From: Beroe forskalii
Taxonomy: Eukaryota; Ctenophora; Nuda; Beroida; Beroidae
NCBI GenBank assembly: GCA_011033025.1
Contig: WFMF01000510.1
Span: 1 to 64,000, forward strand
Length of the DNA: 64,000 bases
Direction: 5' to 3'
Shown: piece after piece, positions 13,974-64,000 of the stretch
Position numbering within the stretch: the first letter of the stretch is position 1
Layout of the letters: each line of letters begins with the position of its first letter
Position numbers and translations under genes: made by a program
Notes under the pieces: model-generated
What the model saw: only the letters and a program-made list of their open reading frames with translations
The model's database searches: none
Told to the model about the DNA's origin: nothing

Positions 13974-16900
13974 ATGTGCACGAAGGACGAAACACACCTC
14001 CGATACGGAGACACAGTCCTGCTCACACAGAAGGGAGCCATGTTGGGTAGTTACTACACCAACAGCGCTGTCTCCAACCTCTTCATGCTCCCACTAAACC
14101 ACCAGTCCATCCCGCCCGAGCTGGCGTGTGCCAAGACATGCGGGTGCTTCCGGATAATGCCCTGCTACGAGTTAGTATGATTTATTAGTATATTTAGTTA
14201 CACATGTTTTCCCCTTGCCCCCCCCCCTTGCTGTTTTTACTGGGTGATATTTTGTTCAATTAAAAACTAGCATTTATTTATTGCGCACATCTCCAAGCTT
14301 TCACAAATTATGTGATGCAGTGCTAAGGTATCATGTTTTGTAGAACATTTAAGGAGTGCATTTATATCGTACGTTGTTTACTTGTTTGGATGGATCTGCG
14401 ACGGTTTAGTACTAAAATGATATCTGGGTCTAAGTATTCTTAACTTTATCGATTCCACGAAGTTGGTGAATCTTGCATAATATGCAGAATTTACATCCCT
14501 TTTTACTTTTTTATGTCATTTGCCTTGTTATGATCTTATCAGTAAATGTTATGCATCCAATGAAAAGCAAAACAACGATCCAAATTTCACAGACAATTCC
14601 CAGGTTCGAATCCTTGGAAAGGATAAAAGAAGCAAAGAAGTTGAAATGGATGAGTTGCAACAAGATCCTGGACTTGGAAGAGAACCTGAGGCGGGAGGAG
14701 AAAGAAAACCAGCGGCGACTCAACCGGTACATGGGGAGGGTAGTCCGGTACGACCATGTCATCCAGCTGATGCACCTGTTTTCCAACAAGATCGTGACAG
14801 CATCCCCCAACAACACCTCCCACACGGAGCCCCGGAACTTTGCCTGCTATTTGGACGATGATCCGAACCAGCGGAGCAGGTTTAAGGTCGTTCCGGCAGT
14901 TGACGGGTATGACCCGGGGGACCCAGTCAATCACTCCGACTTCATTAACCTCTTCAGTGATCCTGATGGTTTCGTGGGCACAAGTGATCATAACTTCGAC
15001 TCAGTTTCAACACTCTATCCACCACTTTCAGAGGTTTCCATTGGGCCCCGTGGAGGCGGGTTCTCAATCAAGTTGTACAAGTCAGTGAACATAAGCACCA
15101 AAAGTGCTGTCAAGACATCAGCTGATATGTCTATCAGACAAAACACTATCTTCGGAGGTGACGTGGTTCAATTCTACAATAAGAACCTCAATTTGTTCCT
15201 GACAACAGACGAGAGCAATAATCTGATCCTGAAGAAACCAACCGTTTACGATGGAAAGCACATCAGCTCGTTGGCAGAGAGTTTCTGGATAATAGAAAAT
15301 GTCAAAGCAAAGTATTCTCTCCCAGTACAAATATCATCCGGAAGTACGACAGACCAAGATATCTATTTGACGAACTTTGTAACAGGGAAAAGAGCCGTTT
15401 TCCCATCTGGTGACGACAAAACGTCTCTAAAGACTCTGATCAAATTAACAACACTGGATGTCAAGTCCGGTGATTGCATCAAATTCTTCTCAGCCAAAAC
15501 TTGGCTTAGCTTCGGAGGACTTGAAAGTGATGGTAGCACCAGAAAATTGATATGCATCGATCATCGAGACCATACCGATGTGTTCACCATTCATAAAATA
15601 GAGAAACACAAACGCCAGAAGATGTTCAAATTACTCGGCTATAAAATGCTCCTGTCAGTTATAGAGGAAAGGTGTAAAACAAAGGAAATATCAATTCCAC
15701 ACCTTAGAAACACCTTGTCAGCAGTGGAAGAAATCCACTTATTTATCGATGGAATCAAAAGAAAAACGGATATCCATGAGAATTGCTACGATTTGGGGAT
15801 CACCCAGCAGTGTTTCAACATCGCCAACTACCTGATCCCGAGGATGCAGGAGCACGATGAGTACAAGAAGAACGTGGAGAAGTTAGTGACCCTCATCCGG
15901 GACATGATGAAACACACTGGACACTTACTGGACGACAAAGCACTTGCTCTCACGGAGAACATCTTCATTGATAAGTCTGGTGTAGGACTCCTAGCCTTTT
16001 TGAATATCATCCGTCATAACGTGACTCTTGTATCAATAATTCCTATGGATCTGGTTGAGTATTTGGTACAGGATTACACTAATCACGGAAAGCCTATCTA
16101 CCTGAAAGTCCTCCGAAAGTTGTGCAAGTGTAAGAAACAAGCTGTTCCGAGCAATCAGAACACCATAATCTCCGCCCTGTTCGGAGCACAGATCCACAAC
16201 AGGTTCGTGCGAGTCCAGAAGGCTGCAGGGACGGGTAACATCAGCATTCTCCATGAAAACAGCTGGATTCCCTTCACTGATCTGCGCTTGGAGCGGTACA
16301 ATGAGCCGTACAGTGAGTTCCTGAGTCAGTTGGACCTCATCAGGAACATGCTGTTTGGGAAGAACGCCTTGGGGAAGTGTCTGATCATTGAGAAGTACAT
16401 GATGTTCAGTGAGGGGGAGTGTGTGGACGTCATCACTAACGAGGCCATAGATCTGCAGGTAGTGTCATCATTTACATGGTACATTATTTGTAATCCACAT
16501 CAATACTAATTCATTCATACATTCATTCTTATTGACAAAATTCTCAGGCTATTTTTGCAGGAATTGACCTTCAAGTAAAGTTAAACTTAAAATTTGTAGT
16601 AATCCCGTTCAAATATTTCATGCCCAAATTTTTGAGTCTTACAAATAGTCCAGAATGCCCAAAATGCCCAAGATACAGTACCAAATATTCCAGATTCGTA
16701 GCAGATACGTTAAGATCATGATTGCAGCTCATATTGACCATCAAATTGAGGGGTCAGCTTTCAAGCCCAGGATGCTTTCATATCACGTCAAGAGAAACAT
16801 CGAGTCAGTGCCTAAAGCAAACGATATCTACTCCACACTTGACAATTGGTTGATCGAATACGTGGAAAATAACACGAACTTGATCATCAAAAAAGAGGTA

Positions 16901-19900
16901 ACCATTAACCAACACCCATTAGCATTGCTGATCGATAGTTTAATTACAGATTCATAGCATTATTTATTATCATTTATCAGCGTTTCCAAATTCTAACAGC
17001 TTTGAAATGTAGCAGATTATTAATTGTGAGCTATTGCACCAAAGTTCCATTGATTTTCTTGTAATTTAACCCGAATATGTGCCAGGAAGAGAATCGTTTT
17101 AAGAACGCAGTAATCATGCTAGTAGAGTACATGTTCCGTAGAGAGGACCTTGGCATCAGCTGTTCTCATCTTGAGAGGTAACTCATTTCCATAATATTCA
17201 TAGCCGACAATACACCGTCTTGATAACATCAGGCATACGTGTGGCTATTTGGGTGGGTTCCTCGCTTCTTTGTTGATTCAAAAGTTGATGAGATCATGAA
17301 ATTTGATGTTATCTGGGTAAACTCTATCCATTATCTACCTGACTATTTGTGCTTGAAGATGATTATTCATGCACCAGCAAATCACCCAATTCTGCTTTCT
17401 TCTCCAGATATATAGCTGCTCTAATGAAATGGCTGGACGGGAAATTGGACAAGTATTATGAAGGACAAGATGATATCAGTTTAGATGTTTTCAGAAGGAT
17501 ATTCAGGTGAGTTGGCTTAATGGGTTTATCCTGATCTTGCTTCAATATAATTACATAAGTACTCTGTCACATCTCACCAATATTATGATTTAGCATAATA
17601 GGAAAAGATTTTAAATGTTACTTAACTGAAAAGATTTTGAGAAAAAGTGTGACACGGTTTTGTAATTTCAAAAAATCGTCAGCTTTTCGAACACTCAGAT
17701 TCCGTGAAGAACCTGAAAACAAGAAATGCAACCAGATAAAACAACGAGTTATCCAAACACTGCATCTCACGTTCTGGCACTGTCTTACAAAGTTCTGGGA
17801 AAAGAGCATGCCCCCTCTTTGCAATTCCGTTTCTGATGTAACCTCTCAAAATATTGAAATGAAAAGTATGCCCACAACTCAACTCAAAAGTGCAATGCAA
17901 GGAGTCCTACCAGGGATGACAATGACGGAAGCTGTTGCAGAACTGGTCAGACCAACTGATAACAAACCGCCAAGTACAGCCAGTAAAGAGATTCTTATGG
18001 CTTTCCTTGAGGATATTCTAGATGACATCGACTTGTTTGCAGACACTGCTGAAATAATGAGAGTAGTAGCGGATGTTCTTAATTATGAGTCAGAAACACT
18101 TACAACAAGGTATTCCTGTTCAAGTGATTTAAGATAATCAATAAGCTTGGACTTGGCGATGAACGTGATTTGTGGTTCTTTGTCATTCTATTCACAGTTC
18201 ACTATCTCAACATTGCTGAGCTGCCCATAATGAGATATTTTATAGCTATTTTATTTCTACTTGAATGTAACTGTTTCAGTGCAGCGGAACTTCTGGTCAT
18301 GTTGTTTTCACCCATTGACATGCTGTTGACTATACTTCCCAAGACAAGAATAATGCTCACAGATGAGACCTACGAGAAACGGAAGGAGATCACGGAAAGA
18401 TATTTTGAAATATGCAAACTTGCAACAGACCCGCTCAGGTGGGTAACCATTTTCCTTGTCCTTGTTATGTAGCAACTGCACCCATTTTAAGCTGGTTTTA
18501 CAACTGCTTAATTTCCCTCTCCCAACTCGTGCAGGACATCTCTATTGCACTTTTAACTCTTTTTATTTTCCTCGGGGGCTATAAGAGTATTGGGGGCTAT
18601 ATATAGCCCCACCAGGTCCCAATGAGGGGAAAAAGCACCCATTAGCATATAGCCTCGAGCTCCATGGAGGCTTATTTGCCCCATGGGGGCTAGTGGGTTG
18701 TAATTTTTTGTATTTCTCTTGTTCTATTTCATCTACATCTCACAGTGAAGAGTTGCTCCAGAAGGTAATCATGGCTCTCAAAAACCTGCGAGATAGCTGC
18801 TTGAATGAGGATCACAGTGTAAATAAAACAATGCAAAGATTTGTATTTGACCTTGGTACTGTCGATGAGTTGATAAGGATTGTTCTGGCATCCAAAGTCA
18901 CCATATCGTCGACATGCCTTCCAACTGATGCAAATGAATACATGGGAGAAAAGCTCTTGTCACTGAAAATTGAAAGTTTCCGACTGCTCAAAGTAAGTTC
19001 GGTCTTCAATTCTAAATAAATCCCTTTAGGCGTTTTTGAAATACCTACATCATAAACTTCAAAAGATTTAAGTCATTGTTAAGCATGCATTGCAATGTCA
19101 TGGCGTATTTAAGTTCGAAATATTAAAAGGAAACTCTTTTTTGAGGTGATTCATGAAACTACCAATGCTTCTCAATGCTTTTTCACTTTCAGATCTTTTT
19201 CACATCATTTCCTAAATTCAGGTGATAATATCAGGATTGGATCAAGGTCAAGAAATTGTCATGAATCACTTTAAGGCCCTTCTAACGGTAAAAGATGAAG
19301 AGGGAATAGATAAGGATAGGACCTTGGAGCAAGTCAAAGCAAATGCATTGGATGAAATTTTCACAGACAATACCAATCTTAGCTTGAATGTGCAAGAAGA
19401 CGAAATCCTTGGTAATTTTCAGGGGTCGTTTTTGGCTTTTCTCATGGCTATTGTTGTACTGTAACTATACTGTAATTATTGCTTAAAGGATTATAAACCT
19501 ATAAAAATCTTAATTTTCATATTGCTTGTAGGTACTAGCAGATATATTATCTACAGGATAAAATATTAAATTAAATTCGGCTCTTCTCATTGTACAAAAT
19601 ATGTAGAACAAGAGGACAACTCATGAGTGAAAATCATTAAATGCAGCGCATTGTCATTGCTTTATTAAAGTAGTGGGTATTTTCATAATGGGTACCTTGA
19701 TCATTGCTGAATAATAACAGGGCGAAATTTCAGCGGTTTTCCATGAAATCATCAACTCTGTCACTGGAAAGAAGGAAGATGTAGAATTTAATGCAAAATA
19801 CAGTTACCTATACCTTTCAATGATAGAGAACATGATCGATATGGAAGATTCAACAGATGTGTTATGTAAGCACCAGACTTATGTGCTCAGGTATGAAAAC

Positions 19901-22900
19901 CAGAAAAAAGTATTTAATTTTGATGTAGAGCTTAAAACTTTGAACTATTAAGCAATTGCATAAGCATTTAGAAAGTCACATAAATTTGTCAAGATTAGAA
20001 GATTATAGGTACAACTTTCAACCAAATACTTAGAATGACATTGTACATTTTGCTTGCAGACTGATTAGAGAATATTGGAATGAGCTTAATGGACGGCTAG
20101 TAGAAGATGAGTCCTCGGACACTTTAGTTGAAATGAATCTTCTAAGTCTTGGACAAAACAAGGAAAATGACATGAGCTCCGATCTTACCATCAAAAAAGA
20201 GGAACTACTATCAAGTGAAAGGTTTTGATCATTGGCGCTATCCCAGCAGATTCTACTCCGCTTGGACTCTGGGGCAGAGAAAGTTTTGGTGGACTGTCTG
20301 CTGCTCCACGGCAGAGCCTAGTGGAGTCTGCTTGGAATAGCAGAGTCTGCGTGGTTCTGCTTGGAACTCTCCATGTCCACCAGCAAAAAGTTTTGGCAGA
20401 GTCTGCTAAAGTCCACATGGAGTCCATGGGGGTCTGAGTGGTTTCACACAGAGTTCAAGCAGAGTCAGCTGGGGATAACGCCTGATCTTTGAATCATTTT
20501 GATTTATGCAAAGTAATTAAGTAATAAAAATAAAAATATCTTTCGATGCTGTTGAAAATTTGAACATATACATATGTCAATGGAGTGGATTTATACTGAA
20601 GATTTTGCACCAAAATCAAGCAGTCAACCATCCCAATTCTCGTTAACTCATTACTTCAGGGGCTGGGAAGGTCTGTATTTTTCTCACATGATTTCACTCA
20701 TGGCATGCTGCGTTGTTGGTGATGCCAAGTCGACAGAAACCATTTGTAAGGTATATAATATTTAGCAAAATATTATGGTAAGAGACGTTATCTTCTGATA
20801 CTTCTTATTGCTCTATCTGAATTTTAACAAAACTGTGAACTGCTTATCAATGAAACTGATTAATTAGATAATTATCTATAAGCCATAATAATTAAAATTT
20901 GTTATTTTCAACATAGTGCTCTGCACTCATCAAGAATATGTGAAATTTAATTGTAAGGAGTAATTGTAAGGAGTAAAGTTTTAAACTTTACAGCGCTTCA
21001 TTATGTAATTGTAATCAAACTTGAGGCATTCCTGCTGATGTTGCAGATCAAGTAGGAACTTAGATAATTCACCTATGACTTGATACTGACAAACGACCCG
21101 TTTTCAGGAACAATATTCCTTGGATGTCATTTTCCCACTATTGAGAGCTGCCAAGTCAGATATATGCTACTTTACGTGCCTCTCAAAATTTGTACTGAAT
21201 GTTTACATCAAGTCATACAGCATAGTAAACAGACAGGTTTGGAAAGCTAATGAAGCTAGAAAATTAAACTTTATACATCAGTTTGTCAGTGCAAAAACAA
21301 TTTGAGAGCCACTGTAAGAAACAACTTTAATAATTTATTGCAGCACCAGAAAATTATAGATTTATCTCTCGTCTATACATCTTGTTTCAGTTTTATGAAG
21401 GTTATAATGTAAGTCGGAAGTCAGTAAGAAAGGTAGGTATTGATACGATACAGTGTGTCCAAAGTGATTCCTGAAGAGAATTCTTATTGCTTCAATGCCC
21501 TTTTAGAATGAAAATGTTTCAAAGCAATGTGGTTTACAGTGGTCTACTTTCTGTGCACAGTTATTTATAAATCAACTATTCAACTTCTATCTTTATTCTA
21601 TCCCATCTAATGCATCCTTCCATTTATCAAAGCAGAATTTTATTCCAAAGCATTTTTCCTCAACAGGGTTCATATTTTAATCAAACACTTTGACAATGAA
21701 TCAATCAGTTGCTAGATTGAGCAATCTGTAGTTATTAGGAATTTGGATATAGTTGAGGATGTTATTATTGGGCAATGGGAACCAAGCTAATTCAGGGCCC
21801 ATGTAACTTTGGACTTTTGGAATAGCAGCAGGAGAGATAATTGATGTCATATATTTCAGTTTTTATTAGGAACAGATCTATCGTGGTATATCAATGAAGG
21901 AGTGACCCTGGTAGAACATGCTGTTAAACAACTGACCACTGGTGTATCACATAAAACATACCTAATTAACAACCAAACCCTGGAGAGCTATGGACCGCCC
22001 TCTGGTGAATTTTGACTAATTCGTGATTTTAAGCAGTTGTAACACAATCTCGTCGATACTAAAAGCAGGAACCCACCCAAATCCAGCAAACCCACCAAGA
22101 ACCCACCTGATTTAGCCTTGAAACCACCAAACCGACCTGAAACATCTGAACATCGGGTGGGTTCTGGTGGAACCACCCGACACCACCTGAACCCACCTGA
22201 AACAAGCAAAACTAGGTGAACCACCAAAAGTTCGAGTTTTGGATGGTTTCGGGGTGGGTTTGGGTGGTTTCAGATGGGTTCAAAAAATTTCGGGTGGGTT
22301 CCAGGCTCATATCCAGTGGGTTGAGGTGAGTTTGGTGGCTTCGGGTGGTTCCTGATTTTAGTATCAATGAACACTGTCCATTTCAGATAAAACTGCTATC
22401 AAGTCGAGATGATGTTGATAAAGATTTAAAAGATCTCGTCTGCTACTACGACTACATTTTCTTTGTGTTATTTCCCATCATAAAGAATATATTCAGCTTT
22501 GACAAGGAAATGGTAAATATCATTCTTCATTTACAAATCTATGTTAAAACTCTATACTTCTATATTAGCAAATGATGCAGCAAAATATATTTTCTGTGTT
22601 GGAAACACCTAGCAATTACAAAAGCTGTACATTGAGAAGTCTTGTACACCAAAATTTTTCTCAGCAGCTTAAAATGTCTTTTAGATTTGATAAAGATACG
22701 TTTATTTTTCAGGTTGTTCAAGCATTTAGCAAAGAAGACCGCTGGAACATGATAACTCAATTTTGTACATTTGCCAATTTCGTGTCTCCATTCATTCCTC
22801 CAATTCTTTGGAATCTGCTTTTTGATGCCATTCAGGCAGTCAATTCCATGGAGAACTATGACTTATCAGATTACTGTTTTGCAGACATAAAATATAAAAT

Positions 22901-25900
22901 GCATAAATTCCAGAAAGATTCAGAAGTTCTCATAACGGTTTGAAGCATTCATCTTCCTTTATCCTACAAATTTGAAAGTTTAGTGTGATTTTGTAGCATA
23001 ACTAGCATTAATAAGTCAACAAAGTAGGAAGGTCGTTTCGGATTGTGCCATCTACTCATCACAGTTTTGAAACATACCTGAACTATCTCCCACTTTAGGT
23101 TGATATACCTGTAGTTTTCCCAAAAGTAATCCAAGATGTCATGGATTTTGTGGTGAAACGAACTGGTTGCAAATTGAAGGAAGCCTACACAAAGAAGATA
23201 CTGAATGAAATCAAAGAGTCAACACTGAATGATGGATTTAAAAGACTTACAACTGTTCTTGTTGAGGTACAGTTTTAATTGAACCATGCAAAATATATTT
23301 GAGTCTTGATACCTATGCAAGTCAAGAAACAGATGAGAAGATGCCATGATAGCTATCAATACTAATAGAAGACTAAAGTTTCAATTCATAGATCACAGCA
23401 AACGTGGCAGAGGGAAGCAGTGTAAAGATGAGTGAAGAATTGAAAAGTTTGGGCTTCAACTTCTTCCAAGAAGCCAATGAATCAACACCAATGGACTCCT
23501 TCACGAATTTTGCACCATTTTGTGATGACACGGTAAAGTATGGAACAAAATATAGAAATTCTTATTATATGAGTTATCTCCCATCCATCCCAAATGTTAC
23601 ACCTAGAAACAATCTTAATCATCAATTCATCAAGTTCGACTATGACATCTCCATAGGTGCCCCCACTCCATTGATGGCCCTCTTTCCTTTTGCCTGGTAC
23701 AAGTCTTCTTTTTCGTGCCTTATGAGCCATATGAGCATTGAGCAATTCCAAAGAAATATATCTGATATACATTCATAGTTCATCTGCAGGCTATTTAATA
23801 ATCACCGAATTTGTGAAATAGCACAAAAAGATAGAGTTAAAGAATATAAATGGCAAGAAGGGCATATATTGAGCATCCAATGACAACAAATTTGTTACCA
23901 GGAAGACGACTATGAGACCCATGTTCCCATCCCCCAACTAGCCAAGATAATTAACAAGATGGCAGGTGAAGACTGTTCAAACTATGTCATGATTCGTCTT
24001 ATCAATGTGTTCTCTGCACTGGCTGAAGACAGCAATAGAACTAAGGTGAGTGGTCTTTCTTAGTTTATTGGCCCAAGCCTTAATTGTGAATATTTCATGG
24101 ACGGAATTTAAAAATAGAGATCAAGCAAACTTAAAATCTTAAGAAATAATGAATGTGAGGTTGTGTAGCCTAAGGCTTTGAACTTTTGAAAGATCAATGA
24201 TCATGTACTCATTAACAAGGTAGGCACTTTTTCAATCTTATTACCTTTTCCACTGTTCTATGGATATGAAAATATTTTCATAAATTGTAACTATGAAGCT
24301 CCATGGTCTGCTCTGTAAAATGTATTAAAAACTGTGCATGTCAGTGGGGGTAAGATGAGAAAAATTTTTATCTTGATCAAAGTATGGCCTAAGGATACAA
24401 TAAAAGAGCAGACTCATGAAACGTCAGGAAGAAGGTTTAATGGGCTAGTGGAGAAATTTAAAGTGTCTGTAAGTACACGGGAGGTGCTGAAATTTTCATG
24501 TAACAAATTCTTTGGATGAAGCACATTTCTTTCATACTATGAAAACTCGAAGCATTTAATCGATCATTGTTATGAGATACAAGCAAATACAAACAATACG
24601 GCCAATCTTGCTTCTCTAAGTCTTCTCTTAGAAAGAAAATTGGACAATTTATTCTGGGTGTCTTGGGACATTTCTTTGGCAGGGAACTTCTGGGTATACA
24701 TCTTATAATAACTAAAGCTGAAGCTGCAATTCACTATTGTCTTGAATTTTCAACAACAGCCCATAACTGATTGCTATGATGCATTCTTTTAACCTTTGAT
24801 TCGGATGATCCCTAGGAAAATTTTCTCATTTTCAAATTCAATGAACGATTTAAACTATAAATAAATAAACCTTGCTGCCTGCACCTTTTGGGAGAAGCCT
24901 GTATTTTATTGAGGATCAATTCAAGTGAAATGTATGTTTACCACCGTTTTATCCAAACATTCTATCAGAGTTCTCCAGCTTCCTCTCTGCTGAATCTCGG
25001 CCTAACAGAAGCGTTGGGAAACCTCATGGCTAGCTGTGAAGATGACAGTATTCAGAAAGCTGTAACAGAGTGTCTTCTGTCACTTTTGAAGATCCCATCA
25101 ACTAGAAATAGGTGAGACTGAGAAGACACTTATTACTGTCCTCTGGATGTGTTAGAGCGAAAACTGGAAGAATGTACATGATTGATTGTCTATTGAGCTT
25201 CTAATAATTTAAAACTTTAAAGAGGTCAAGAGGCTTGATTTTAAACTTTTATATTGATAAATCGACAGATTTCAAGTGAAACTTACACTTACAGTAATTG
25301 CTGGTGTTATCCAAACTCTTCAGGTTGCACGAATACTGCATGACCACAGTTGATCCCTTATTTGAGTGGTGTTACGAGAACATAAAAGCAGCAATTGAAG
25401 GTAGAATTTATTCTGTTTAAATGTGACCACACCAGAAGGGAACAATTTCATGCAGCCATATAAACTAGAGAAGTGATAAAGTTGAAAAGTGCTCATCACA
25501 ATTTGCTGCAGGAAACACTCAGTTACGGATGATAGAAAGCATGAGAGAAAAAGGAGGCATGAGTGGACCAATCGACGATATTGGTATTGTATCCAGTACA
25601 CCCATGATACGTCTGTCTGTGCAACTCATTGGAGCTATGTGTGAAGAACAGTTTACATCAATGCAGGTATATAGTTGTAAACATTATCTACAGACATTAT
25701 CTACAATCTACTCATTATCTACTTATATTACAGCAGCGATGATTTGGAAACTAGGAGACCAACATAACCCATATAACATTCCTCTATTTACTTAAAATTT
25801 GCCTAATCCATGAAAAAGCTAAGTAGCTAACAGCATGATATTATCATTTTTCCACAGAATTATTTACGTTTTCAAGACAACAAGATAATGTCATGGAATT

Positions 25901-28900
25901 TTTTGGTGCTGCTTATAAAACTACTTCATTGTGCAAGATCTGGAGAGTTACTCATGGATACAATGAAGTCCATCAATTCATTGATTTCTGCCAATGATGT
26001 AGCAAAAGAAACAGCTATTGAAAATGATATTGTGGAAGTTCTGAACAAAATCGTTGCTGAAAAAGCACCAGGTATGTCTATTTTAACTTTCTGAGGTCCA
26101 CAATTTATTGTCATAAAAGTAACGTAGTATATTACCAGGATCGTCAACCGAATTGTTATAGAATTTTGAAACTTATAGTGCATAATCACCATGGCCCAAC
26201 TGATGAGTGATGACTTGTTTGAGCCCGTGACCTCATTTGAATTTAAGTAATTTTCTGGCCTCAATTTTCCAATAAATATTAAATAGTAGTGGTACCAATA
26301 TTCTTCCCATGATCATTATATTGGCTCATGAATCTCACAAACAGCATCATCGTTTCTATCTTATCACAATAATTCCTGACATGAGTTTATCAGATTGCAG
26401 AACTTAATCTGTACTGTGGTTTGTAGACAAAATACGATGCAAGTTATTTATACACTCTGCTATCAACGAGCAATAAAGATATTTGACAATCCTCTTGGTG
26501 GCAGCCAATCATCTATTAATTAAGTTACATGGACTATATGGTAATTACTAGTGTAAAAATTGTATTGCTATTCAGAAAATTTGAGAATAATTAGAATATA
26601 TCTGTACTTTTCAGCACATGACAGCCTGAATGCACAAGAAATTAAAGCAAATTGTTATTCTCTATTATCCACTCTGATTGAGCAATCGAATATGCTTTGT
26701 GAATTCTATGATAAGGTCAGAAAAATATCATGATTCATTATATGATTACCGAGTTTAAACTTATCTCCATCTGACATGAAATCTCATCATAGCAATATGA
26801 CAGAAAAATATATTCAAATACTCAAATAATTTTCCTCGGTTCAATTATCTTACATTTGGTTGGATGTAATGATTGAAGGTGCAACAAATTATTACACTCA
26901 AATAGACATCATTCTATATTTTAAGGTTCAAGAGGAATTAGATGTACAGACTTTACAAAGTGAAATAAATACACATATGAGTCTACTTGGATCAGAAAAT
27001 GGAGACAAAGCCCAAACAGCTGCATTCAAAGGATATGCTTTGCTGAAGAAAATTGGCTCAATGGACAAGAAAGATTATGTGGGGAAACTTGATGAGGAAA
27101 TTGCACTAAAACTCAAGGTAGGTCTAATTTTTGGACTTGACTTCAATAAATAAAAAAGCAATTCGGTCATGACCCGTTGCCTAAACCAGAAATGTAAGTG
27201 CCATTAGAGAGTGCTATTGATGCATATCATATCTTCAGGCCATATTGAGTCGACCTGTAATACCAACTTTCATTGTGTCCAGGTGGCTAGTGTTGAGATT
27301 CAATGGAAAGGTCACCTCGAAAAAGTTTATTACCCAATTCCAAAGGATGGAAATGTGAGAAATAAAGTACGAGAGGAATTGAAATGGAAGATTGACAGGA
27401 AATCTAAATTCGACAAGCAAAGAGATTTCCTAGTATGGAGTCAAGAGGTTGTTATACTCATCACTATCATAAGAGAAAAACACAAATTTGATTTACATTG
27501 CACTACATTTCATGTAGTGCAATGTAAATCAAATTTGTATTTTTATGTTTATTCATAAAATATGTTCTTATATGGGTATAAGAGTCGCATAATTAAAATA
27601 AGTGAGAAATTTATCTATTCTCTCTTGACTCAATGGTACAAGTGCAACTAAAGAACCACATTGCTTCCATTTAACTTGTCCCATTGAGTCGAAAAAGAAT
27701 AAAAATATTAATGAATTACTCTCTTATTGGCTCTAGAAAACATATGTAAGTAAATTTGATATTTCCAGATAGTCGAAGATGTTGAACATCAGAAATATTA
27801 TTCATCTATACCTTTTCTTAACTGGATCATGAGGAAAGAAGTTGTATGGGATTGGTTGGTTTTCATAATTGCTCTCATATTACAGGTAAAATTGGAATGT
27901 TCTAAGTATGTAGATGCTTAATGCTTATTAAATATTTTTGAATTACATCTTAAGTATGAGAGTATGATATTATCAGATTAAAACTAAGGAAATAATTTAA
28001 ATATTTTAACCCATTAGTGCCGGACGACCACATAATATGTGGACACCTGATAGACAATTTTCAAAATTGCATATCAGACTCAATTTTAAGCCATTTTGCT
28101 TAATTTGGATTTGGAAGTGAAGAGGAAACCTAGAATAAAAATGTGAGTCAGAATTTTATTGTTCTGAGCTGGTTCAACCTCAGAAAATTAGTGGCAAAAA
28201 ATGGTGTGAAAAAAACGTGACAAAAACATATGTGGACATCTACAATTGTGGTCAGGAATTTGGTGAAAATTGCAAAAATGTCCACAAATGGAGACGATGT
28301 CCCCATTTGTGAACGGTTGCTGTCCACACTTCAATAAGTCAGTTTCTAGGCATCTGACAATGATAACAACAAAAGATTTCATCTAATTAGGAAAAATGTT
28401 TTCAATCCTGAAAATTTCAGGTTTCTATCTCAACCAGATCTATGTCTCGTCATTAATGGGCTAATGTGGTGATAACATGTCCAGTTGCTACACCCTCTCA
28501 TCAGCTCATCCGATTATTTCATCCAGTTATTCACATTCTTTCACTTCTGAGATCTGACACCATCACCACACTACATAATATACTCCCACACGTGGTCACG
28601 TGACACATCATACACCCTCTGGCTGAAGAAGCTGAGCATTTAGCACATCTATTTGAAAGCTTTTGATTTTAAAAGTCTTCGTATCATTGAATTTTAAACG
28701 TTTCAACTTATGTTCTAAGGTCTGGTTGTTACTGGATTGGATAGATGTGAAAGGTGCTGTTGATCATGACGTGAGTGAAGTTATCGGTAATGCTAATAAA
28801 TCTTATCAACATTTGAAACATTGTGAAGATGAACATGGGCCAAACTACCTTGGTGTTTGTCCTTCAGATGGATTTTATTTCACCATAGTAAGCTTAGGTA

Positions 28901-31683
28901 AGTCTAGTTAAATTTGATAATACATTAATACTTGAATCAGTAGTAAATAGCTATACAAATTAGGTCATAAAAAGCTACAAAGTAGGTAAAAAATACAAAA
29001 GGGCAAATTTTATTTGGTCAGAGGAGGGGCTTAGTTATCCTTATATATTGTAAGATATCCTTTTCAAAAGCACTCGTATGGTAGAGAGATTTTTGAAGAG
29101 GAATCATGGTAAAATGGTTATGTAGCAGATGCATGATATCATGACAATCTAAATCTTGGCTGTATAATCAAATTATTCAGAGGGGAGACTATTATATACG
29201 TTGAGATATTGAGTTTTCAATTGAATGAATTACAGGTTTGGTACATCTTGTGGCCTGTCTGTTCCTATCAACAAGTTATTTCTTTGCCAACTGCCATAGG
29301 ATATCCTTCAAGTTCAACCCCAACAAAAGAATGTTGATTAAGTGGCATTCCTTTTATCACTTCTACTTGCTTGCAATCCTCGTTTGTAGTTGCCTGGGAA
29401 TCTGGTAAGTCATAAATGGGTAAAATTGCTGTTGGTATCGTTGTATTTCGAGCACGTAGTGTTAAATAATATGGTCGTGTATAGTACTTAGACAATGCTT
29501 ATCTAATTGCATTATTTAGATAACAGTGGCTATTTGAATTAAGGTTTTGGATAAGCCTGCACAGTCAAGTATTGCAATTTGCATGGTCAAATTTTGTCAA
29601 ACTGAAAGAGTTTAATTAAATACATTCCCAGGTCAGATGGAATTCTCTACTGTTTCCACTTATTTCACATAGCCACTCTGTTTGATCTGCTAGGACGAGT
29701 TATCAGAGGTGCAACAAAACATGCAGATCAACTCCTGGTGAGTTTTGAAAAAGGTTTCAAATGTATTAAACAGTTTCTCAACCTCCATGTAAGCTAAATT
29801 ACGTTTAAGTTGCTTGTTTAATCATACTGGTAAATTCCAAGCAGAGGAACACAGCGAAAATTAGCCACCACTAGCTCCCATAAGCCACATAAGGGGTTTG
29901 AGTGGTGGCTGTGTGGTTGCTAAATTTTCAAGTATAGGCTAACAGGGGCTAGTCACTGGAGGGGCTAATGGTGTCTGGTGAGTGGTGGTTGCTTTCATAA
30001 AATACATCGGGTGGAAAATGGTGGCAGGGGCCTAGCAAGATTTTTGAAAATGTGGCGGGTTAAATTCAAAACCTGTCGAATTTCTTATTTTGCTATGCTT
30101 CCAGCTCTCATCTAAACGAAGGAGAGGCAGGGTCTGTGTCGCTTTCCCCCTACGCCCCTGACTGATGAGTGATGGTGGCTTATTTTCAGTGGTGCCTATA
30201 CTCGACTTGAGATGTTCCGGTCATGCGGTCACGTCATCTGTGTAACATTTGACATTGCTTGGTGACGTGACATGACCGGCACATCTTAAATCCGCCGATT
30301 ATAGTGGGGGCTAGTGGTGGCTAATTCACCGGGGAGTAGAGTTACATTTTCGTGATGGCTATTGAAATTAGCTGCCACTCAATTCCCACCAGCTGATTCA
30401 ACTTTTTTGACACCACAGTACTGACTGCTGAGTGGGGCTTATTGACAATTCATATTCCAGGTTTGTGCTCCATTTGCAGTGATCATTGCCTATGTTTACT
30501 CTATCATATACTTTAGCTTCTTCCGAGACATGTTTGATCAGGGTAAAATGGAATACTGTCAAACTTTAGGTCAGTGCTTGGTCACTGTCTTGAAGAATTC
30601 CTTGCGACCTTCATCGGGTGGACATAATTACAGGTAGGCATAGTGTAAATCAATGCCACAGCAGAATATAGACTCACTGAAAGTGACTGAAACTTCAATA
30701 GTTATTGTTGGTCAATAGTTGTCGATCGTCATTGTCAATGGTAATTTTTTGATTGAATGCAAATTGTTTGAATTTATTGATTAAAAGTAAATTAAAAGTA
30801 TAAGGATGTTCTTTCCAGTTGGACAGGCAGGACCGATTTTGAAGACCTTTGGATTCGTGTTATAATTGATGCAACATTCTGGATACTTTTCACCATTATT
30901 GGACTAAATGTTGTGACCAGTTTGATATTGGATGGTTTCAGACAGCTAAAGGTACGCATCACAAGTTTAAAACTCACGATATTGTTCAATCAATCAACAA
31001 TTCAATTAATCAATCAATCGATCAATCAATCAATTTAATGTAAAATATGCATCGCTTTGTGGGCTGATTCTATCTTTTGATCTTCAGGCTGAACGAGAGA
31101 GGGCCTTAAAAGACATGACAACTCTTTGCACGATCTGTGGACTATCTAAGGATGAGTTGGTGAGCAATGGGATATCTTGGTCAACCCACGTAGACAGAGA
31201 ACACAACCTTTGGAACTATGTCACCTTCTTCTACTACCTTCAAGAGCATGATGGAAGATTCTCTGCTGTGGAAAACGAGGTTAGTTGAGGGCAGAATTCG
31301 TCCCTATATAGAAATATCGACTCTACAATGAGGATTTTCTCAAAACAATGTCTGACCTATCTTCTTATCTTGTTTAAATCGCTGTGTTCTTTGATTGTAA
31401 GTAAAATACCTTATAACTTTAATAAATAAATAAAATTTATTAACAGCAAATGAAGCCTACAGAAAAATGAGTATATATTTCATTAGGCTACATGAAATTA
31501 GGCACTTTTTGAGGTCTGAGTGCTTTATTCAATGTAAACTTGATTTAACCTCTGATAAGGCATGATGCAATCTCATAACATTATCACTATCAATCTTATT
31601 AGGTGTTGAAGAAGTTCAAAAAAACAGATCCATCATTTCTACCTTCTGGAAGATGCATCTCGATGGATACGAAAATCAGTTGA
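13974..31683 (+). CDS. Divergent IP3-receptor/ryanodine-receptor family channel
   Basis: Predicted intracellular (ER) calcium-release channel of about 2,364 residues. My 35-exon model: 13974-14170, 14604-16458, 16694-16897, 17086-17177, 17408-17506, 17699-18109, 18280-18438, 18746-18992, 19222-19411, 19734-19890, 20060-20221, 20660-20750, 21108-21236, 21391-21408, 21860-21943, 22387-22512, 22713-22937, 23099-23266, 23392-23532, 23902-24045, 24969-25111, 25324-25400, 25512-25666, 25858-26071, 26615-26715, 26926-27117, 27283-27447, 27769-27885, 28720-28897, 29236-29404, 29632-29737, 30461-30633, 30819-30951, 31088-31279, 31603-31683. All junctions are GT-AG and in phase. The start aligns with the IP3R N-terminus (YGDTVLLT like IGDICSLY). 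The family is fixed by the N-terminal beta-trefoil/MIR region, the RIH-associated motif (residues 1763-1790, containing NYLRFQDNK) and the six-helix channel. It is shorter than usual (about 2,700). The 18-nt exon 14, and whether an exon was missed in 24,046-24,968, are the weakest points. Confidence 0.88.
14604..16458 (+). other. Large exon 2: suppressor/IP3-binding core region
   Basis: This single 1,855-nt exon encodes residues 66-683, covering most of the beta-trefoil suppressor domain, the MIR repeats and the armadillo-like (RIH) part equivalent to the IP3-binding core. GGDVVQFY (about residue 250) aligns with GGDVVRLF of mammalian receptors, anchoring the alignment. The basic loop TTGRQ that contacts IP3 phosphates in IP3R1 is replaced by KKPTV, and the DYRK cluster (Y567/R568/K569 of IP3R1) aligns with a DDK segment, so the ligand-contact set is not conserved by eye. 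The remaining coding sequence is spread over small exons, an unusual asymmetry. The next in-phase donor lies at 16,459. Confidence 0.75.
20227..20487. mobile_element. 261-bp MITE abutting a splice donor
   Basis: The left end GATCATTGGCGCTATCCCAG and the right end (reverse complement GATCAGGCGTTATCCCCAGC) form imperfect terminal inverted repeats; TTT flanks both sides as a possible target duplication. The inside is rich in GCAGAGTCTGC and TCCACATGGAGTCC palindromes. It has no coding capacity. It lies in intron 11 of the channel gene, starting five bases after the end of exon 11, so only GTTTT of the original intron remains on that side. Confidence 0.75.
22055..22365. mobile_element. 311-bp MITE with GATACTAAAA termini
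   Basis: The left end GATACTAAAAGCAGGAACCC is the inverted copy of the right end (reverse complement GATACTAAAATCAGGAACC). The interior consists of GGGTGGGTTC/GAACCCACC motifs in both orientations. It sits in intron 15 of the channel gene and ends only 21 bases before the exon 16 boundary. It is non-autonomous; superfamily unknown. Confidence 0.8.
27482..27538. repeat. Perfect 26-bp-arm palindrome in intron 27
   Basis: Arm 27,482-27,507 (begins ACAAATTTGATTTACATTGC) is the exact reverse complement of 27,513-27,538, with a five-base spacer. It lies in the intron after exon 27 of the channel gene. Perfect arms imply recent formation. Confidence 0.9.
28010..28460. mobile_element. piggyBac-like MITE in intron 28
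   Basis: TTAA at 28,006-28,009 precedes CCCATTAGTGCCGGACGAC, and the right end ACGAG-like inverted repeat finishes CATTAATGGG followed by CTAA. TTAA targets with CCC-starting termini are typical of piggyBac transposons, so this 451-bp element is most likely a piggyBac-derived MITE whose right target copy has one change. It also contains several CACATATGTGGACA-like words. It has no coding capacity. Confidence 0.7.
29855..30340. mobile_element. MITE-like insertion rich in TAGCCACCACTAG
   Basis: Intron 31 of the channel gene holds ATTAGCCACCACTAGCTCCC near the left and its inverted form GGGGGCTAGTGGTGGCTAAT near 30,305. A nested hairpin built from ATGTTCCGGTCATGCGGTCA and GTGACATGACCGGCACATCT lies at about 30,210-30,285. 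The boundaries are approximate. Related GGGGGCTA/TAGCCCC words occur in the 18,570-18,695 intron. Confidence 0.5.
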
Positions 31684-32249: not shown

Positions 32250-35200
32250 TTATTTCTGCAAGAGATAAAGTGCAGTTCCTTCAGAAGGGAAAAGCGTCAT
32301 CTTGAAACCTGTTTGAATGTATTGGTTGTCTGGAGCACTGAAATAGAATTCACAGATAAGCTGAGAAATCACAAGCTTTAGTTCAAGCATAGCAAAGTTC
32401 ATTCCAATGCACTTCCGAGGTCCAATCAAGAACGGGATATATGTAAAAGGTTTGATTCCATCCTTCTCTAAGAATCTTTCTGGTTGAAACCTAGTTGAAT
32501 TTTTCCAGTACTCCTCTGTTCTCCCTTGTATGAAGGGAAAAGTCATGACCTGAGTGTTTCCCGGAATTATACAATCACCAATAAGAGTATCACCATTTGA
32601 GTTTCGCCTGACCATGGAAACCACAGGATAGAGGCGCAGAGTTTCTTTTATGATACACTCAATATAAACCAGTTTGTGCAAATCATCTTCCTCTATGAAG
32701 GACTTACCAAGGAGGACACTGTTAACCTCCTCAACTGCCTTTTCACAGACCTCGGGGTGTCTTGCAAGGAGAGCTAACACAAAACACAGTGTATTTGAGG
32801 TAGTTTCATGACCAGCCACAATGAAAGTAACGAAATCATCCACTATTTCTTCGTCAGAATACCATGGGTTGTTGTTCTGAATGTCTATCGAATGTGCAAG
32901 CAAATCTGATGGAGTTTTGTCACCAATTATCAATTCTAATCTTCTTTTGGCTATTGCATCATGTCCCAGTTGCCTGAGCAATGCACCAGCTTCTCTTGTT
33001 TGGTTTATGGAATTCCTGTTTTTAGGTTTGTACATAAAGAGTGGATCAAATGCAGCACCAAAAAAACCATCAAACATGTCTGAGATGTGGTTCAATAGAC
33101 TGCTCATAGATATGTTCGATACAGTCTTATCAAAATCCATCCCATAGCCAATGGTCGCGATCAGTTGAATAGCCAATTTCCTCATATGCCAAGACACATC
33201 TAAAGGGCTATGATCATTGGCATAATTTTTCATATCCTGAATATTAATGTGAACAATTTCATTGATTCGGGGTACCAAGGATCGTAGATAGGTTTTATGG
33301 AAGGCAGGGTCCAATGCGAGCCTCTTCTTGTGCCAAACCTCCCCTCCGATGTGGTTTAGAAGTCCTCCATACCCGGTAAAGCGTTGGTTTCCATAATAAG
33401 TCAAGCTGGAGTTAGTGACCTTGTAAAGTCCACCATTTGTCACTAACATATCTTTTATTCCACTGGTACTCAAAACTGCAACTCCTGAATCAGTACATTC
33501 TCAAAATAATTTTAGGACGTGTTATATTTTCGATTTTACTTCCAGATTCTGTCATTTGAATTCAATAATTTTATTATTTCAGAACTTAATAATATAAGAT
33601 GATGGCTATTATTGAAAATATTTTTGAGTAATAATCTCTTGTTTCATTAGACGAGTTTGCAACTTATCATGAGGAATATCAAGATCTATTCAGAGCAAGT
33701 GAGACAATGCAACTCTTATATACGTTACTCTACTGTTAGATTGAAATTTATATGTCTGTAGGCCCTCTGTAGTGTCAATAGGGAAATAACGGGTGATGAC
33801 TATTTATCCGGAATTACCTCAATGTACTCTTGTGGGCAAATCGAGATCATGTTAGATCTCAGATGTGCTTATTCTGGACCTAAAAAGTCTGCTGATTCAG
33901 AATAACATCATGAGAAAATTTGAGGGCCCTGTTTTCCCATGCTACTGGCCGATTGGTTTGAGAGGGTACAAAAAAATCTTGCACAAATTCAAAGATTGAC
34001 TTCCTGACATATGATTGGAAAATTGCATACAGGAGCATTCCCATCAGTTGCCATCTAGGTTTATTTATGAACTTCGTTAGCTGAGACACTAATGAAGACC
34101 TCTACATGCATTTTTTGTTGAATATCAAGAAAATTCTTGGATTTTAGAGCTAAAATCACGCCAAATTTCTGGAAAAAGGTGTGTGTTTTTTTGCTACACC
34201 AGGCCTTAAGAAAGTCTTAGAACAGGACCTAGGTGGTCTGAACACTCAGATTTGATGGCAGGGACCTCATTAAACATAACTCATGTCTTTAGACCACTTC
34301 CATTTATTGGTATGCAGAATTTTGGATTAACAATTACCCAAAATCGCAGTTTTATGAAAGTGACATTATCCTAGAATTGACGATTTTAAACACGTTTTAG
34401 GTTCCATAGGCTCACCACTGGATAAGTTAGTGATGCTACTTACTGCAGTCACTCTTGAGACCCTCCTGCTCAGAACCATCCCATAGTAAGGCTTAAATAA
34501 CACTTTTGGAGATAATTATTGTCATTGAGATTTTGTGCAAGATTTTTTCGTACCTTCTCAAACTAATCGGCCAGTAGCATGGGAAAACAGGGTTTTCAAA
34601 TTTTCTCATGATGTTATTCTGAATCAGCAGACTTTTTAGGTCCAGAATAATCATATTTGAGCTCTAACATGATCTCGATTTGCCCACAAGAATACATTGA
34701 AATAATTCCAGATAAATAGTCATCACCCGTTAGTTGAATAAAGTGATGAAAAAGTGGTGTCAATCCATAAGTTGGCGTCATAACATAAACTACGAAATTT
34801 GAAAACAATCACAGAATGAAGAGTGAGTGAAACTGAGAAACTGATGCGTTGAGTTAGAATGCATACTTATGTATGTATGTATGTATGTTTTTGCTGGAAA
34901 TTAACCGATTTTAGATGAAATTTGCAAAATAAGATGAATATTTGAGGTGAAATGAATAACAACTACCTGCTTTCCAGAAGAGGAATCGGCACCAAATTTT
35001 GCCATATTGTTTGGTCCACTCATGATAAAGGAAGAACATGTGTCCATCATCATCAATTGCCCTTTTAATTGTTGAAAAATGTCCGCCGAAGAAACTGAAC
35101 AAGGTATTGTTTGAGTGCAATGGGAGTGCAATATTACGGAAATATATTTTGCCACTTTATTAATACAACTCCTGTTGGGAAAGGTAAAAAAGAAAAAACT

Positions 35201-35320
35201 ATACCTTTCTAGAGGAGGTGAAGGAATGTGCTTGTACTTCTCTCGAAACGTCTTCAAATGCCATGTCCAGCAGCAAGCAGCTATGAGCAGACAGAGAGCC
35301 AACAAAACACCGAACAACAT
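32250..35320 (-). CDS. Cytochrome P450, CYP46/CYP4-like, microsomal
   Basis: Heme-thiolate monooxygenase, complete at 492 residues in three exons (minus strand): 35320-35205, 35094-34967, 33484-32250; junctions are GT-AG and in phase. Start: the ATG at 35,320 gives a standard microsomal N-terminus, a hydrophobic anchor (residues 2-22), basic KTFREKYKH, then the proline hinge IPSPP; no upstream in-frame ATG was seen nearby. Motifs: WHKKR helix-C region, I-helix AGHETT (305-310), K-helix ETLR (362-365), PERF (416-419) and heme loop FLIGPRKCIG (433-442) with Cys440 as heme ligand. All key residues are intact. The best resemblance by eye is to cholesterol 24-hydroxylase (CYP46) and the CYP4 clan; substrate is unknown. 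It needs P450 reductase on the ER membrane. It is convergent with the channel gene. Confidence 0.93.
33788..34731. mobile_element. 944-bp foldback element with long terminal inverted repeats
   Basis: Starts AACGGGTGATGACTATTTAT and ends with the inverted copy ATAAATAGTCATCACCCGTT. The inverted repeats extend roughly 200-250 bp (about 33,788-34,000 against 34,530-34,731), including inverted copies of CAAATCGAGATCATG and CCCATGCTACTGGCCGATT-like blocks. It fills most of intron 2 of the P450 gene. No transposase is encoded. Long TIRs suggest a Mutator-like or foldback type, which I cannot settle. Confidence 0.85.
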
Positions 35321-35466
35321 TGCAACAACTGCATCAAACAATAGCCCAATTACTGCTTCCAGCCAATATTGCCTTTTCTGATCAAGACCTATCTGATCGA
35401 TACAGCTCCGCAATTCAGGTATGTTGTATAACTCTCGTGCAATTAGAAGTCGAATACAATTGCCGC

Positions 35467-35526
35467 GGTGTCTCGACCTGTTGAGGCATGGCTAAATACG
35501 CCGTGTTTCAAAAAGATCGAGACACG
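35467..35526. mobile_element. GGTGTCTCGA-family MITE, short copy
   Basis: GGTGTCTCGACCTGTTGAGG at the left and GATCGAGACAC at the right form the family's termini, but only about 60 bp remains and the GCGCACAAAG core is missing. It is an internally deleted copy about 150 bp upstream of the P450 start. Confidence 0.7.

Positions 35527-60851: not shown

Positions 60852-64000
<3,149 letters not shown>

Follow-up and report, generated by a model that had tools for sequence, protein, structure and literature searches.

A divergent IP3R-like channel gene with an altered IP3 site, calcium site and selectivity filter in the comb jelly Beroe forskalii

The channel gene and its neighborhood

The window analyzed here is a 64,000-nucleotide stretch of the Beroe forskalii genome (assembly GCA_011033025.1, contig WFMF01000510.1, positions 1 to 64,000). 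It contains a channel gene on the plus strand at 13974-31683 that was modeled as 34 exons with 7140 nt of coding sequence, encoding a protein of 2379 amino acids. The model was built by hand from genomic sequence, with exons joined on the basis of splice signals and homology. All 33 introns are GT-AG and in phase, and the joined exons give one continuous frame whose only stop is its last codon. Estimated from base composition, an open frame of 2379 codons would arise by chance with a probability of ~10^-69. The acceptor of exon 10 was set at 19734 instead of 19721, which preserves the phase across all 34 exons. The GC content at third codon positions is 0.77 in exon 1 and drops to ~0.3 in a number of the middle exons.

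Exon 1 (13974-14170) carries the start codon and the first half of a suppressor-type domain (MCTKDETHLRYGDTVLL...), and it ends in a gt donor in phase 2. Its product aligns from residue 1 of IP3R1 onward with both MAFFT and hhalign. Exon 2 (14604-16458) is an intronless block of 1855 nt within a 679-aa open frame (14470-16509), and it encodes the remainder of the Ins145 domain, the MIR/beta-trefoil 2 region, and the ARM1/RIH region. A preliminary description of this DNA had placed an IP3R-family channel at 14604-16458. This assignment holds: the exon is uninterrupted and homologous to the N-terminus of IP3R and, when searched alone, matches the Pfam families Ins145_P3_rec (2.6e-10) and RIH (2.4e-06); its best PDB match is IP3R1 (3.8e-07). 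Exons 3-21 (16694-25400), also hand-built, encode the central solenoid, and exons 22-23 (25512-26071) encode a RIH-associated region whose Pfam match is weak and under the cut-off. The six hydrophobic segments S1-S6 and the pore are encoded by exons 27-32 (27769-30951). Exon 33 (31088-31279) encodes the juxtamembrane motif CTICGL...H...EHNLW, and exon 34 (31603-31683) a short tail that reaches its stop 26 codons in, without an IP3R-type C-terminal extension.

A cytochrome P450 gene (PF00067, 2.7e-76) lies on the minus strand at 32253-35491, tail-to-tail with the channel gene, leaving little space for extra 3' exons of the latter. An open frame at 34904-35491, upstream of the cytochrome P450, may be the 5' part of that gene. 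Elsewhere in the window there is a tandem array of a GC-rich 31-base unit (868-1430; 18.5 copies, 92% matches) and, close to the window end, an exon of a protein kinase domain on the plus strand (62771-63187; PF00069, 1.2e-23).

Family membership and related genes in the genome

Further evidence of family membership comes from the spliced protein. Its N-terminal half matches Ins145_P3_rec (4.2e-13; 49.4 bits, cut-off 23) and RIH (3.5e-06; 27.1 bits, cut-off 22.3) in Pfam. Three other domains of the family scored under their cut-offs: RIH_assoc (25.8 bits vs 28.5), Ion_trans (23.1 bits vs 25), and MIR in exon 2 alone (16.1 bits vs 25.6). The C-terminal half matches IP3R1 in PDB (1.6e-30), ahead of the best RyR (4.7e-24). 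Hydropathy peaks match the positions of S1-S6 (residues 2022-2277); some weaker peaks occur outside these segments, the highest of them at residues 989-1007. The fold of IP3R is preserved between the N-terminal trefoil and the juxtamembrane CxxC...H...H motif. A Pfam scan of the spliced protein found no SPRY domains or RyR repeats at E values up to 1, and the absence of both ruled out a RyR orthologue.

The same genome carries a canonical IP3R on a different contig (C803, ~383512-499908), whose plus-strand pieces are ~32-89% identical to rat IP3R1 in tblastn. This gene retains the motifs RSTGR, NRDRQKLVR, YRK, and GGGIGD, so that IP3 signaling in this animal does not require the window gene. 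The region of the canonical gene that matches exon 2 is split into many tblastn pieces. The Ins145-type profile PF08709 found five places in the genome: two on C803, two on C962 that represent a partial second copy, and one in the window gene. The additional, incomplete sets of exons from the canonical IP3R, located at ~514.7-525.9 kb of C803 (minus strand, inverted) and at C962:29-1177, may be haplotigs or a segmental duplication. Queries from exon 2 and from the middle and C-terminal parts of the window protein matched the window gene only, at the thresholds used. As judged from its sequence, the window gene is a complete channel gene of the IP3R/RyR superfamily that is distinct from the canonical IP3R of Beroe forskalii.

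No RyR was found in the genome with an RyR1 pore query, which matched just the canonical IP3R (two places) and the window gene (one place). A genome search with PF02026, run with no positive control, gave 0 matches, and searches of open-licence papers for a ctenophore RyR led nowhere. In Mnemiopsis, a single insP3R gene, ML25824a, is named in a passage of PMC9949713.

Other genes in the assembly bear on the source of the DNA. A query with berovin (the PDB name) matched at 18 places, with identity of up to 94% in the top match. Berovin-like photoprotein genes form a cluster at C254:69430-215333 and C745:37003-37620, and some are interrupted by stops. The local photoprotein scores 445.7 bits with berovin vs 423.9 with mnemiopsin 1. 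There are also 11 matches to Wnt genes; these and the ctenophore photoproteins point to an animal and against a unicellular source. The cox1 gene is very divergent and reads TGA as Trp, and a tRNA scan of a 2844-base mitochondrial piece found 0 genes.

IP3 contacts, calcium site, and pore

The IP3-binding region was compared with IP3R1 using six MAFFT variants and six hhalign runs. Four of the hhalign runs were full-length and two ended early, one before the IP3 loop and one after it. The contacts scored were positions 265-269, 504/508/511, and 567-569 of the IP3R1 binding-core structure. N-terminal identity to IP3R1 is only about 22-24%. The alignment of the beta-trefoil beats 498 of 500 shuffles (z 4.2). 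For the ARM1 region the top local alignment reaches z 5.1, with one in 500 shuffles scoring as high. The GGDVV anchor of beta-trefoil 2 (15154-15168) is present and aligned, as had been described.

The counterpart of the IP3-phosphate loop FLRTTGRQ is LILKKPTVYDG (15223-15255). RTTGR aligns with K-P-T-V-Y in all six MAFFT variants and in the five hhalign runs that reach it, giving R265K, T266P, an unchanged T267, G268V, and R269Y. The preliminary description had set KKPTV against TTGRQ; the loss of the loop was confirmed, but that register was off by one residue. It had also paired the YRK cluster with a non-basic DDK segment. Instead, YRK (567-569) pairs with YKK (15862-15870) in all ten full-length alignments (six MAFFT, four hhalign), with Y567 and K569 identical, R568 replaced by K, and the character of the cluster conserved. 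The same pairing occurs in the local alignment of the ARM1 region. The agreement across MAFFT and hhalign indicates that the earlier reading was correct on the loop and wrong on YRK.

The least certain contact stretch is 504-511, where hhalign confidence is low. The four full-length hhalign runs place IHENCYDLGI (15772-15801) against ERQKLMREQN, so that R504, K508, and R511 correspond to a gap, E, and Y; MAFFT differs, which leaves this counterpart uncertain. The MAFFT variants give a gap at 504 in all six cases, a gap (four) or T (two) at 508, and a gap (three), H (two), or R (one) at 511. A by-eye register that set KHKRQKMFK against R504-R511, keeping K508 and R511, was rejected, as the alignments put KHKRQKMFK ~50 residues earlier, against AEVRDLDF. 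In addition, R241 is replaced by Q and K249 by L.

Overall, the profile alignment leaves only Y567, K569, and T267 identical and R265K and R568K conservative. A basic residue is kept at three of the seven basic contact positions (265, 568, and 569) in the hhalign alignment, which is not most of them, and the claim of a degraded contact set survives. In other words, an animal protein with an IP3R fold and degraded IP3 contacts is borne out, but the loss of YRK is not. Within the window, tblastn with IP3R1 matched only 14695-15306 and 31079-31252 and showed no further copy of the exon for IP3 binding.

The preliminary description had missed that the gene encodes a complete channel, as well as the changes in the calcium-activation site, pore filter, S6 gate, and C-terminal tail. 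The roles of the site, filter, and gate residues are taken from passages of PMC8930994, in human IP3R3 numbering. One of the two Ca2+-activation glutamates (E1882 and E1946) is lost. E1882 is kept within CEEQF (25640-25654), and the TEYCQGPC segment that carries E1946 and Q1949 is lost in both MAFFT variants, in a gapped region. The two glutamates are 64 residues apart in IP3R1 and equally spaced in human IP3R3. The counterpart of the filter, RPSSGGHNYSW (30605-30822), is split by intron 31 (30634-30818). The GGGVGD filter aligns without gaps with SSGGHN, at equal spacing from the flanking residues, and the GGGxGD pattern of IP3R and RyR is not kept. At the S6 gate, LNVVTSLILDGF (30904-30939), N2510 is kept, and F2513T, G2514S, and I2517L are found. 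In the gene model the C-terminal extension of IP3R is absent, with the stop at 31683 following shortly after the juxtamembrane domain.

Possible function, origin, and comparison with known channels

How would such a channel open? Because the IP3 pocket, the calcium-sensing site, and the ion filter are all altered, the opener is probably something other than IP3. It appears fairly probable that the gene encodes an IP3R-like channel that assembles into its own tetramer, lacks the usual opening by IP3 and Ca2+, and has a lower Ca2+ selectivity. The window protein alone would form a homotetrameric cation channel, presumably in an endomembrane. Its IP3 clamp has lost most of the loop on the beta side, and probably also the basic cluster at 504-511, while K265 and YKK remain. 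Gating could come from another ligand at the YKK patch or from partner proteins, or the channel could provide a basal leak. The constriction at S6 is less bulky. Permeation would be changed, and a lower Ca2+ selectivity would fit the SSGGHN filter.

From its residues we infer that the channel may be insensitive to IP3, and precedent points both ways. Prole and Taylor, in a passage of PMC3194816, took the loss of basic residues in parasite homologues to indicate another ligand. However, trypanosome IP3Rs whose contact residues are poorly conserved act as IP3-activated channels, according to a passage of PMC9694693, so altered contacts are no proof that a channel ignores IP3.

The trypanosome precedent also fits a different explanation, in which the gene is a copy of the canonical ctenophore IP3R that has evolved quickly, and its product an ordinary if divergent receptor that would still bind IP3, perhaps weakly, via K265 and YKK. 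The retained YKK and the conservative R265K are consistent with it, but R269, G268, and T266 are replaced, as are K508 and R511 in the profile alignment, and the filter and the Ca2+ site are altered as well. Relationships also bear on this explanation. Pore identity of the window protein is 29.0% to IP3R1, 27.5% to the canonical ctenophore IP3R, and 28.8% to RyR1; N-terminal identity is 23.5%, 24.1%, and 21.9%, respectively. A quartet test on these four sequences (LG+G4) gave the split of IP3R1 and the canonical ctenophore IP3R from RyR1 and the window protein as the best. The AU p values of the alternative splits were ~0.0001 for the N-terminal part, 0.07-0.11 for the C-terminal/pore part, and 0.0002 for the joined data. 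Pairing of the window protein with the canonical IP3R was rejected in the N-terminal and joined data (~0.0001-0.0002) but not by the pore alone (0.07). Long-branch attraction between the window gene and RyR1 could yield the same split. Unless it misleads, the quartet disfavors a recent copy of the canonical IP3R, and an IP3-binding duplicate seems unlikely.

Less likely again is a regulatory or dominant-negative subunit that would co-assemble with the canonical IP3R and alter its gating or conductance. The N-terminal and pore domains are all kept while the ligand site, the Ca2+ site, and the filter are degraded, which fits a release from gating duty, but the low identity to the canonical protein (~24% N-terminal, 27.5% pore) and the absence of a C-terminal tail make mixed tetramers doubtful. 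A misassembled or decaying gene with no working channel would suit a hand-made model and the loss of several functional motifs, but it is very improbable given a frame intact over 7.1 kb, the presence of every splice signal, and the conservation of the zinc-type motif and the pore-helix spacing.

A more far-reaching idea, which we put forward tentatively and think rather doubtful, is that ctenophores may have a calcium-release-type channel of a third class besides IP3R and RyR, which would pre-date the diversification of canonical animal IP3Rs, be opened by another signal, and have a non-GGGxGD pore. IP3R and RyR are usually regarded as the entire animal set of Ca2+-release channels of this superfamily. 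No prior description of the window channel was found in searches of the open-licence literature. A complete comb jelly channel in which ligand site, Ca2+ site, and filter have all diverged is a natural test of the requirements for gating and selectivity, and it bears on the number of such channels in the first animals.

The window protein resembles canonical IP3Rs (rat IP3R1 and the Beroe gene on C803) in its domain order, six-TM pore, CxxC...H...H motif, best PDB matches, and length class (2379 vs about 2700 aa). Unlike them, it is without the IP3 loop, the 504-511 cluster, the second Ca2+-site glutamate, GGGVGD, and the C-terminal tail. It shares with RyR the superfamily fold, the absence of the IP3 contact set, and a pore about as close to RyR1 (28.8%) as to IP3R1 (29.0%), and like RyR1 but unlike IP3R1 it ends soon after the juxtamembrane domain. 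However, it is half as long as RyR and has no SPRY or RyR-repeat match, and RyR1 has the filter GGGIGD. A possible parallel is Capsaspora IP3R-B, an IP3R paralogue that is reported (Alzayady et al. 2015) to be unresponsive to IP3, alongside a responsive IP3R-A. Finally, trypanosomatid and oomycete IP3R/RyR homologues also miss many of the basic residues in the IP3 core, as passages of PMC3194816 and PMC9694693 indicate, but the window channel, unlike them, belongs to an animal with a canonical IP3R as well.
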